Of a stretch of DNA of 53,177 bases, positions 32,314 to 35,487 are shown piece by piece. The DNA lies in the NCBI GenBank assembly GCA_017694495.1, contig JADIMU010000064.1, positions 1-53,177 on the forward strand. Direction: 5' to 3'. This DNA is from Candidatus Aphodenecus pullistercoris (GTDB lineage Bacteria; Spirochaetota; Spirochaetia; Sphaerochaetales; Sphaerochaetaceae). The notes under the pieces were generated by a model, which searched no databases, had not been told where the DNA came from, and saw only the letters and a program-made list of their open reading frames with translations. Within the stretch, counting starts at the first letter, position 1. The number at the start of each line of letters is the position of its first letter. A program made the translations under genes and the position numbers.

Positions 32314-32884
32314 CTAGAGGGAGAAGGCGTAGCCGGCAATCAGACCAATCGATAAGGCGAAGGGTGCATGCCCTGTAGCTGTCACCTGGGATGTATCTTC
32401 GACCAGAGGAATTGAGAAATTCACCTTTGCCGACAGGTCGAGCATCCCGCCACCTGCGGGAATCCAGACGCCTGCATTCATTCCTATATTGAATTCCTTG
32501 CTGTAATGCGAACCGGCATCAGAATAGAATCCAAATCCGAAATAGAAATCAGCTTTGAATGAAAGACCTAATTGTCTGGACCTTAGATTAAATAACACAT
32601 CAAAGTTGAACGATCCGCCAAAGGCAAGACCAGCCTCAATCGCAGTTCCATTGCCAGCAAACCTCGAATCCATTAGGAGAGATCTGTGAGCAGTCCATAA
32701 TATAATGTGAGCAAAGTGGGTGAATTGGGATATTCTTTTGTACCAGCCAAGATATATGCGTTGAGTCCAAGCGAGAATTCCGCACTAGTCGTCACCCAGC
32801 CGCCATACTCTTTTACATTTGTCAGCATCTCCCTCTTTCCACTTCTAGTCAGGACTTGGCCATTGCCTCTCCTGCCCCGGGCAA
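32314..32884 (-). pseudogene. broken outer-membrane beta-barrel gene
   Basis: The 3' part (32673-32314) encodes 119 residues of alternating hydrophobic and polar strands (LSFKADFYFGFGFYSDAG, FALSIGLIAGYAFSL). The upstream part (to 32884), read one frame over, continues the same pattern (EYGGWVTTSAEFSLGLNAYILAGTK) and hits TAA at about 32674. One frameshift there joins the two. No signal peptide is left, and a stop lies at the far 5' end, so the gene lost its start. Base composition is AT-richer than its neighbours. It is probably a decayed outer-membrane protein; the remaining 32286-32313 stretch is empty. Confidence 0.55.
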
Positions 32885-32892
32885 ACTATCCT
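32863..32892 (+). promoter_or_regulatory. rlmI promoter, likely leaderless
   Basis: TTGCCT (32863-32868), 18 nt, TATCCT (32887-32892), ending 6 nt before ATG 32899. No ribosome site. Confidence 0.5.
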
Positions 32893-32898
32893 AGGGCC

Positions 32899-34116
32899 AT
32901 GTACACCATCACGATAAGGCGCGGGAGGGAGGACATCCTGCGCAAGCACAACAGCAAGGTCTACTCAGGAGCCATCGCGGCGATTGAACCTGTCTATTCT
33001 GGCCCATCCCTTGCCAGAGTCCTGGACGCAGACGGCCGCTTCATCGCCTGGGGAAGCTATGACGAGGAGAGCCACACTGTCCTGACATTGCTCAGCTGGA
33101 GGGAGGAGGTAGTGCCCGACGACGGCTGGCTGGAGGCCATGGTCGCCAATGCAGTCGACAACAGGAAGCATCTGATCGACGAAAGGACCAATGCAGTGCG
33201 CCTCATACATGGTGATGCCGACTTCATTCCCGGCCTTGCGGCGGACCTCTATGGAGACGAGATCCGCATCCTCATCTCCTCGCGCTTCGCCCACCGCCAT
33301 CTCGAGACGGTCGTGAAGGCCCTCTTCAACTGCACGAAGGCCCAGTGGATCTCGAGCAAGGTGGATGCGCTCTACGCTCCCAGCGAGCACTTGAAGAAGG
33401 AGGAGCGCAACTTCAGCCGTGGTGGCGAGGAGAAGGGCCGCAGGGAAGGCAACACAGCCTTCCTTGAGGACGGAATCCTCTATGAGATCACCAGCGGCAT
33501 AAGCCAGAAGAGCGGCTTCTACCTCGACCAGAGGAACAACAGGCACATCGTCGAAGGCTACGCCGCCGGACGGCGCTGCCTCGATGCATGCTCCTTCACG
33601 GGAGCCTTCACACTCCACCTCCTCAGGGGAGGAGCCGAGAGCGTCCTCGCATGCGACGCCTCCGAGTCCGTCCTCCGCCACCTCCTCTATCAGGTGAACA
33701 TCAACGAGGACAGAGGCCTCATCCCCGCCGGCTCCAGGAGCCGCGTGGCCATTCGCAAGGACGACGTCTTCTCCCTGGTGCGCCAGATCGAGGAAGACGA
33801 GTTCGACCTCATAGTCCTCGACCCGCCCAAGCTGGCCAAGAAGCGTGACGAGAGGGATGGCGCGATGCGCGGCTACAAGGACCTCAACCTCTGGGCCATG
33901 CGGAAGATCAGGGACGGAGGAATCGTCGCAGCCTTCTCCTGCTCAGGCGCCATCAGCCGCCAGGACTTCCACACTGCGGTCTCCTATGCGGCCGCGGACG
34001 CCCACGTCGACCTCCAGATCCTCGAGGAGCTGAGCGCGGGACCTGACCATCCGGTACGCGCCTCGATGAGTGAGACGGCCTACCTCAAGGGCCTCGTCTA
34101 TCGGGTCGTGAAGTGA
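32899..34116 (+). CDS. rlmI: class I rRNA methyltransferase, RlmI type
   Basis: 405 residues. An N-terminal PUA-like RNA-binding domain (to about 75), then a Rossmann methyltransferase with LDACSFTGAFTLHLLRGGAESVLACDAS near 230-257 (SAM site) and LIVLDPPKLAKK near 304 (DPPK motif), ending in AFSCSGAIS. The RlmI family methylates C1962 of 23S rRNA. A long open frame from 32707 exists, but the family N-terminus fits ATG 32899. The stop overlaps the next gene's start (TGATG). Confidence 0.88.
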   Translation: MYTITIRRGREDILRKHNSKVYSGAIAAIEPVYSGPSLARVLDADGRFIAWGSYDEESHTVLTLLSWREEVVPDDGWLEAMVANAVDNRKHLIDERTNAVRLIHGDADFIPGLAADLYGDEIRILISSRFAHRHLETVVKALFNCTKAQWISSKVDALYAPSEHLKKEERNFSRGGEEKGRREGNTAFLEDGILYEITSGISQKSGFYLDQRNNRHIVEGYAAGRRCLDACSFTGAFTLHLLRGGAESVLACDASESVLRHLLYQVNINEDRGLIPAGSRSRVAIRKDDVFSLVRQIEEDEFDLIVLDPPKLAKKRDERDGAMRGYKDLNLWAMRKIRDGGIVAAFSCSGAISRQDFHTAVSYAAADAHVDLQILEELSAGPDHPVRASMSETAYLKGLVYRVVK

Positions 34117-34466
34117 TGAGGCACATGCGCAAGGCGGACATCGTGGTCATCTTCCTCCTTCTGGCCATCCCGCTTGGCATCCTCTTCGCTTCACCACGCG
34201 GTGCGCTCTTCGTGGAGATCGAGTGCCAGGAAGGCACATACCGCTACAGCCTGGACGACGAGGTCAGGTTGACGGTCACAGGACCTGTCGGCGAGACGAC
34301 AATCGAGATCTCTCATGGAAAGGCGAGGATAGCCGCCTCCGACTGTCCCACGAAAAGCTGCACGCGAGGCTCGATCGACAGCAGCCCGCAGACCCTCGTC
34401 TGCCTGCCCAACCAGGTCGTCGTGAGCATAAGCGGAGAAGGAGGTGCCGATGCGATCGCCTACTGA
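34116..34466 (+). CDS. NusG domain II-containing membrane-anchored protein
   Basis: 116 residues. An N-terminal membrane anchor (VVIFLLLAIPLGILFA) precedes a NusG-domain-II-like barrel with ISHGKARIAASDCPTKSCTRGSIDSSPQTLVCLPNQVVVSI, the COG5341 signature with two conserved Cys (DCP...SC). Such proteins pair with Gx-transporter genes in many Firmicutes and spirochaetes, but their function is unsettled; an extracytoplasmic role is likely. Start ATG 34116 overlaps the rlmI stop (TGATG). A GTG 3 nt earlier is also possible. The Gx gene begins 17 nt before its stop. Confidence 0.8.
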   Translation: MRHMRKADIVVIFLLLAIPLGILFASPRGALFVEIECQEGTYRYSLDDEVRLTVTGPVGETTIEISHGKARIAASDCPTKSCTRGSIDSSPQTLVCLPNQVVVSISGEGGADAIAY

Positions 34467-35487
34467 GGTCGCCTACCTCGCCGCCCTCTCGCTCACGCTG
34501 AGCATCGTAGAGGCTGGCCTGCCCCAGGCCATACCCTTCCTGCGCATTGGACTGGCAAACCTCGTCCTGCTGTGGGCTCTGGAGAGGCTGTGCGCCAAGG
34601 ACTACCTGGCCCTGGCCGCCTTGAAATGGTTCCTCTCATGCCTCGTGTCGGGCATACTCATCTCGCCCTACGCTCTGGTGAGCCTTTCGGGAAACGCGGC
34701 CAGCGCACTCGCGATGCTCCTTGTACACAAGGTAGCCGGAAACAGGCTCTCGCTATACTCGGTCTCGGCCCTGGGCGCCTGGATGTCGGCCCTTGCCCAG
34801 ATGGGAGCCACCAGCCTGATCATCTCCTCCACAGTCATGCGCCTGCTGCCCTTCATGCTCGTCTTCAACACAGCCGCAGGTCTGGTCACCGCCTTCATCG
34901 CACTGCGCCTGGAGCCGGCACGCGATGTAAGGGTCGAGGGAGTCAGGGAAAAAGGCAGGACAGGCTGGGCAAGCCTCATCCTCTTCCTTGTGGCCATCCT
35001 CGCCCTCGCCCTGACAGACGGCATCGCCACCCTCGCCATCTGCTTCGCCCTTGCCCTACTTTCATGCCACATGGCAGGACGCAGGATAAGGCCAGTGCCC
35101 TACATCATCGCGATGGTCGGCATCATCGTCTTCTCCCTGCTCGCCCCATCAGGCCGTGTGCTCTGGCTCTTCGTGACGGAAGGCGCCCTGAGGGAAGGAC
35201 TTTCCAAGGCGCTCCGCCTCTCTGCCATGGTCGCCCTCTCCCAGACGATGACGGCCTCAGTCAGCTTCTCTTCGCTCATCCTAGGCGAGGCTCTGGCGAT
35301 CAACGCATCGCTGTCGGCCCTCTTCTCCCGGACGGAGGGAAGCATCAGGAAGAGGCTCACAGAGGTCCTCTCATGCCGCACGATTGTACTGGTGCAAGGA
35401 GACAGACGTGGCACCACAGCACCCGTCACTGTCATCACGCTGGCAATCACGCTGCTGGCCATCATCTCGCGTCTGTGTATCGTTTAA
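34450..35487 (+). CDS. Gx transporter family protein, apparently fused to an EcfT-like half
   Basis: 345 residues, about ten hydrophobic segments. The first half (to about 160) is the Gx transporter/HepT-I-like family, distantly related to ECF substrate-binding S components: LPQAIPFLRIGLANLVLLW, LVSGILISPYALVSLSGNAASAL. The second half, after residue 185, resembles EcfT/CbiQ transmembrane subunits (WLFVTEGALREGLSKALRLSAMVALSQTMT). The combination suggests S and T parts in one chain; no ATPase is adjacent. ATG 34450 has AAGGAGG upstream and is preferred over GTG 34444. The NusG-II partner lies just upstream. The fusion reading is inference. Confidence 0.68.
   Translation: MRSPTEVAYLAALSLTLSIVEAGLPQAIPFLRIGLANLVLLWALERLCAKDYLALAALKWFLSCLVSGILISPYALVSLSGNAASALAMLLVHKVAGNRLSLYSVSALGAWMSALAQMGATSLIISSTVMRLLPFMLVFNTAAGLVTAFIALRLEPARDVRVEGVREKGRTGWASLILFLVAILALALTDGIATLAICFALALLSCHMAGRRIRPVPYIIAMVGIIVFSLLAPSGRVLWLFVTEGALREGLSKALRLSAMVALSQTMTASVSFSSLILGEALAINASLSALFSRTEGSIRKRLTEVLSCRTIVLVQGDRRGTTAPVTVITLAITLLAIISRLCIV

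Follow-up and report, generated by a model that had tools for sequence, protein, structure and literature searches.

What kind of transporter, and for which substrate, is encoded by a gene whose product joins an S component-like half to an EcfT-like half in one chain? Such a gene lies in the window, the whole 53,177-nt stretch of the Candidatus Aphodenecus pullistercoris contig analysed here. We consider, with a probability of roughly two in three, that this fused gene encodes the single-chain S–T module of an ECF-type FAD exporter, composed of EetB and a short FmnA/EcfT-like scaffold.

A fused gene in an apparent operon of overlapping genes

The gene is a single open reading frame with an ATG at 34450 and a stop codon ending at 35487, so the one-chain S–T arrangement put forward in a sequence-only reading is present as described. 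The features of the locus, all on the forward strand, are as follows.

32707-34116 (+): PUA plus SAM methyltransferase gene, upstream, overlapping and in the same apparent operon (PF10672, E 3.6e-10; PF17785, E 2.6e-9)
34116-34466 (+): eetA-like gene for a NusG domain II protein of 116 aa (PF07009 NusG_II, E 6.6e-19)
34438-34445 (+): putative ribosome-binding site AAGGAGGT ahead of the ATG of the fused gene, read from the sequence
34450-35487 (+): fused eetB–T gene, predicted single-chain ECF S–T protein, one ORF of 345 aa (AlphaFold model, pLDDT 86.8, pTM 0.83)
34477-34905 (+): S-component domain (PF07456/EetB), residues 10-152 (PF07456, E 5.6e-26; structural comparison; AXXXA column count)
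34906-34962 (+): linker joining the S and T domains, residues 153-171, containing the model's lowest pLDDT block (66, residues 161-170)
34963-35484 (+): predicted shortened ECF-T-like domain, residues 172-345 (model helices; family profile; hhalign to CbiQ; fold of a relative)

The eetA-like gene overlaps its neighbours on both sides: the preceding gene's stop and its own start overlap (TGATG), and its last 17 bases also belong to the fused gene. Downstream of the fused gene lies an aldehyde/alcohol dehydrogenase gene, and for the PUA/SAM methyltransferase gene no transport link is assumed. The NusG-II neighbour named in the sequence-only reading was confirmed by its Pfam match, and 57 of 80 named EetB loci likewise contain a NusG_II match. 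We take EetA of Listeria to be the NusG_II protein. Deletion of eetA gave no phenotype as described in PMC9973259, and the word NusG is absent from the main text of that paper.

The first half is an EetB-family S component

Residues 10-152 of the window protein matched PF07456 with a score of 91.8 bits, where the cut-off is 30. In agreement, when the model of the fused protein was compared with known structures (VIA), the top twelve rows were ECF S components with Z-scores of 13.1-10.1, and the next row scored 5.8. Both results bear out the earlier assignment of the first half to the S components. An AXXXA motif in S-component helix 1 has been described as the EcfT docking motif (PMC11109136); in the window protein it lies in helix 1 at residues 8-12 (A8..A12), and a column count found both alanines kept in 78 of 104 relatives. 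The fold is common to RibU and other ECF S components, but the window's S half belongs to a separate family, PF07456, and export has been published as the direction of its Listeria member. The Pfam name of the family, 'heptaprenyl diphosphate synthase component I', was rejected as a function, since it is merely a name and an ECF S component is what both the fold and the published data indicate.

The sequence-only reading had regarded the substrate as unknown. However, PF07456 is the family of EetB, and in Listeria monocytogenes EetB binds FAD and pulls it down (PMC9973259). According to the same paper, EetB, the ECF-T protein FmnA and EcfA/A′ are all needed for flavinylation of PplA and for the extracytosolic FAD supply that ApbE-type flavinylation uses. 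By analogy with this homologue, the window protein would bind FAD and move it outwards. The Listeria EetB–FmnA exporter, as described there, resembles the window's system in that an ECF-T-like partner accompanies the PF07456 S component. Further likenesses are the adjoining NusG_II (eetA-like) gene and a genome that encodes ApbE as well as Rnf-type acceptors. In contrast to Listeria, the window's S and T are joined in a single polypeptide with a shorter T part that Pfam CbiQ misses, and apbE is unlinked.

In the literature, PF07456 was found in PMC9973259 only, and 'Gx transporter family' in a single Lacticaseibacillus paper, going by the text available. Among the matches listed, no paper combined EetB or FmnA with spirochaetes in its available text, PMC8042283 being the only one there with EetB, and the combination of 'FAD export' with Treponema gave none.

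The second half is predicted to be a shortened relative of ECF-T

The sequence-only reading held that the second half resembles EcfT, and that the lack of a match to EcfT profiles would speak against this. Taken literally, Pfam gave no such match: the second half alone produced two sub-threshold hits to families other than CbiQ (E 0.26 and 0.29), and CbiQ (PF02361) found nothing in the window protein. At E values up to 0.01, CbiQ detected 1 of 30 T-like relatives. A distant free-standing member (L020) matched CbiQ with an E value of 2e-4, under the cut-off, and a CbiQ search of 41 genomes touched one T-like place only, again below the cut-off (in G045, the same protein as L020). Profile–profile comparison, however, revealed a relationship. 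An alignment of the T-like family (133 rows, 103 distinct; 102 after hhalign's own filter) matched 32 CbiQ rows with a probability of 91.4% and an E value of 9.1e-7 over 127 columns, whereas the reversed alignment and ten block-shuffled alignments gave at most 0.2% and NusG_II gave 1.4%. Comparing the Gx half with these T-like rows gave 0.2%. Hence, of the two halves that were to be compared with their families, the Gx half was recovered directly by PF07456 and the T half by hhalign but not by Pfam.

Other searches gave mixed results. An earlier T-like set of 55 rows aligned with CbiQ at 88.8% across 183 columns, and 11 of these 55 rows were matched by an HMM built from the CbiQ set, the top one being the window's own (2.3e-6 in that small set). 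In the opposite direction, an HMM built from the T-like family recovered none of the 32 CbiQ sequences at E values up to 10, and hhalign of the second half against the three single EcfT sequences of its own genome gave 0.3, 2.8 and 0.2%. Similarly, the T-like profile had 15 matches to PDB sequences at E values up to 10, with no ECF-T chain among them.

In the AlphaFold model, the T-like domain is predicted to have three N-terminal helices, a short beta element, a long helix 4 (244-270), shorter helices at 277-294 and 299-308 and a last helix at 323-344. Foldseek and VIA searches with the fused model listed S components and unrelated folds, with no ECF-T among the 50 rows listed by each, and the predicted T fold therefore rests on a free-standing relative, L107, which was modelled at pLDDT 88.8. 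For L107, Foldseek ranked ECF-T chains first, although with a best E value of only 0.02, and the ten top VIA entries were all ECF-T (Z 12.6-8.0, next row 5.1); VIA itself warns that helical bundles may reach Z ~13 through a common arrangement.

The family departs from canonical EcfT in two respects. In the stretches compared, it is ~65 residues shorter than CbiQ (medians 191 vs 258). In addition, the Ala-Arg-Gly coupling motif, listed as characteristic of EcfT in PMC11109136, was absent from the window's half when searched as the loose pattern A.{0,3}RG, which was found in 12 of 103 distinct T-like relatives vs 24 of 32 CbiQ sequences. Judged by profile–profile comparison and by the modelled fold of a relative, the second half is thus a predicted ECF-T relative and not a canonical EcfT: it shares that fold and remote sequence similarity with EcfT/CbiQ, but lacks clear Ala-Arg-Gly motifs and mostly stays under Pfam detection. 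Such an assignment would give an identity to the C-terminal half, so far unrecognised, of a membrane protein that is common in spirochaetes. Since the T-like family mostly escapes Pfam, the published count of 291 genomes with eetB beside an ECF-T gene (PMC9973259) is likely too low for this class.

The T-like family occurs across Spirochaetia, fused to EetB or encoded beside it

When the whole protein was used as query, 53 of 61 genomes among its relatives held a match. Within the same genus, 13 of the 16 genomes searched matched, and because all 13 hold one uninterrupted frame across both halves, the fusion is not a sequencing artefact ('fused' being defined as one open frame in the assemblies). 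In more distant spirochaetes, the counterpart of the second half often has its own gene, of ~205 aa, directly after eetB. We also considered that the second half might be a chance open frame, which its conservation, its uninterrupted state and its frequent occurrence as a separate gene elsewhere rule out. A profile of the second half found 163 of 198 Spirochaetia genomes and, in a sample of the phylum, 20 of 149 genomes, comprising 17 in the class and three weak matches outside it (E 3e-5 to 5e-4). These results define a new, shortened T-like family without clear Ala-Arg-Gly motifs across Spirochaetia.

The gene order was examined in the best 80 of 423 confirmed EetB relatives, i.e. those closest to a query built from spirochaete sequences; six of these 80 loci duplicate sequences that built the T-like profile. 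A T-like part followed eetB in 78 of them, as a separate gene in 59 (including L168, where the match is on an opposite-strand ORF) and fused in 19, and was not found in two. On a quickly built EetB tree, in which 36 forks are left open and long branches join one another, the switch between fused and separate forms takes 10 changes, at least three of which are forced by starred branches. When partner proteins have been fused on more than one occasion, they usually act together.

The arrangement had been called uncommon in the sequence-only reading, which these loci do not support. As described in PMC9973259, moreover, eetA lies beside eetB in 3,328 genomes, and single chains of EetB and ECF-T are already in print (WP_021725833.1, MBE6480012.1 and MBQ3267887.1), which by their description share the two-domain idea in one polypeptide with the window protein.

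The T-like gene co-occurs with ApbE

Among the 198 class genomes, 156 had both the T-like gene and ApbE, 7 and 9 had one only, and 26 had neither (Fisher P = 9e-19; the genomes are related and the pattern follows phylogeny, so they are not independent). The two genes were no more than 3 kb apart in 27 of 128 genomes with places listed for both, and in 16 they were within 251 bases. The window's genome has one ApbE, on contig C18 and unlinked to the fused gene (C52). It also encodes an NQR2/RnfD/RnfE-family protein, adjoined by an FMN_bind protein with SGASVT within the matched stretch. From known RnfG/NqrC motifs, we presume that SGASVT is the flavin site.

We propose that the EetB half would bind cytosolic FAD and topple within the membrane, against the T half to which it is covalently joined. 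FAD would thereby be set free on the outer side of the cytoplasmic membrane, where ApbE may attach FMN to Rnf-type subunits. The T half would probably borrow ECF ATPases encoded elsewhere in the genome. The module is a candidate source of the extracytosolic FAD that ApbE needs in these bacteria, including one with a 1.14-Mb genome and the fused form (G110).

ATPases and the direction of transport

No ECF ATPase is encoded beside the fused module. A motif scan of the 80 EetB loci found 8 ABC ORFs, with the full 8 kb on both sides available in 36 loci only. The window's genome has three canonical ECF-T genes, each beside ABC sequence (contigs C42, C21 and C16); on C21 the T gene adjoins a 453-aa ABC chain and on C16 a 245-aa ABC gene. 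Candidate partner ATPases for the module were thus seen beside canonical ECF-T genes and not at its own locus, and the ABC ATPases of C42, C21 and C16 could be shared with the fused module. On C42, an 871-aa single chain (L178:6556-9171) combines a match to ECF-T with two matches to ECF-type ATPases.

Alternatively, the module might be an ATPase-free FAD facilitator with a reduced, uncoupled T half as its scaffold, in which FAD exits down its gradient and is trapped covalently by ApbE. The coupling motifs and ~65 residues missing from the T half would fit this, as would the lack of a linked ATPase. Two near-complete genomes, G044 (95%) and G072 (97%), also have a T-like gene without a CbiQ match, and none of the ATPases examined in them grouped with ECF ATPases. 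However, those examined were 34 of 164 TIGR04520 matches (23 of 108 in G044 and 11 of 56 in G072), and TIGR04520 does not tell ECF ATPases apart from the remaining ABC ATPases of these genomes; in each of the two, the best TIGR04520 match was best named an amino-acid-type (GlnQ) ATPase. The same reasoning failed in G049, where 13 of 36 matches were classified: there a row of three genes (L263:4345-6417) encodes BioY, an ECF-type ATPase and, in the EcfT position, a protein of 242 aa. That protein had no Pfam match at E values up to 0.001, and as CbiQ missed it, the absence of a CbiQ hit is not the absence of EcfT. Likewise, G051 is without a CbiQ match yet has an ECF-type ATPase. The absence-of-ATPase argument from G044 and G072 is therefore weak, because few matches were examined, the reasoning failed in G049 and G051 has an ECF-type ATPase. 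Since EcfA/A′ is required in Listeria (PMC9973259), we consider an uncoupled facilitator unlikely. Should the short T half function with no ATPase, this would reveal how small a part of the ECF machinery is needed for export.

A broader form of this idea, which we regard as doubtful to a similar degree, is an exporter common to the class Spirochaetia. It would consist of EetB and a reduced T part stripped of the motifs for ATPase coupling, often in one chain and with no canonical EcfA/A′, and it would run on the FAD gradient and trapping by ApbE.

It is less probable still that the protein imports FAD, riboflavin or another vitamin, as most ECF transporters do. Its S-component fold is common to import S components including RibU, but EetB of Listeria did not stand in for RibU in uptake, as described in PMC9973259, and the tie to ApbE fits a supply from the cytosol. 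Finally, that the second half is a helical membrane domain of other origin, similar to EcfT in arrangement only, is very improbable: the misses by CbiQ and among PDB sequences, the modest Foldseek score, the silence of the fused model and the VIA warning stand against the hhalign match with its clean controls, the drop in Z-score below the ten ECF-T rows of L107 and the position of the T-like part after the S component in 78 of the 80 EetB loci.

Further arrangements of the module

Outside the spirochaetes, the whole eetA–eetB–T set, with a separate T gene, was seen in two Desulfobacterota, Desulfosediminicola and Desulfopila (L108:7628-9088 and L144:7625-9088). On the quick EetB tree, both loci are placed amid sequences from spirochaetes, and gene transfer is possible. 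In the single-contig 1.14-Mb genome (G110, within the class), the S–T fusion is 374 aa long and matches PF07456 with an E value of 6.9e-40 (L267:4961-6085, contig C1), with no adjoining NusG_II gene seen by eye. Six genomes of another genus (G046, G137, G116, G156, G089 and G147) have the T-like match inside a frame of 717-735 aa. In one of these (L056, G046:C45), the T-like part continues into sequence that by eye is phosphohexomutase-like, an odd apparent fusion.
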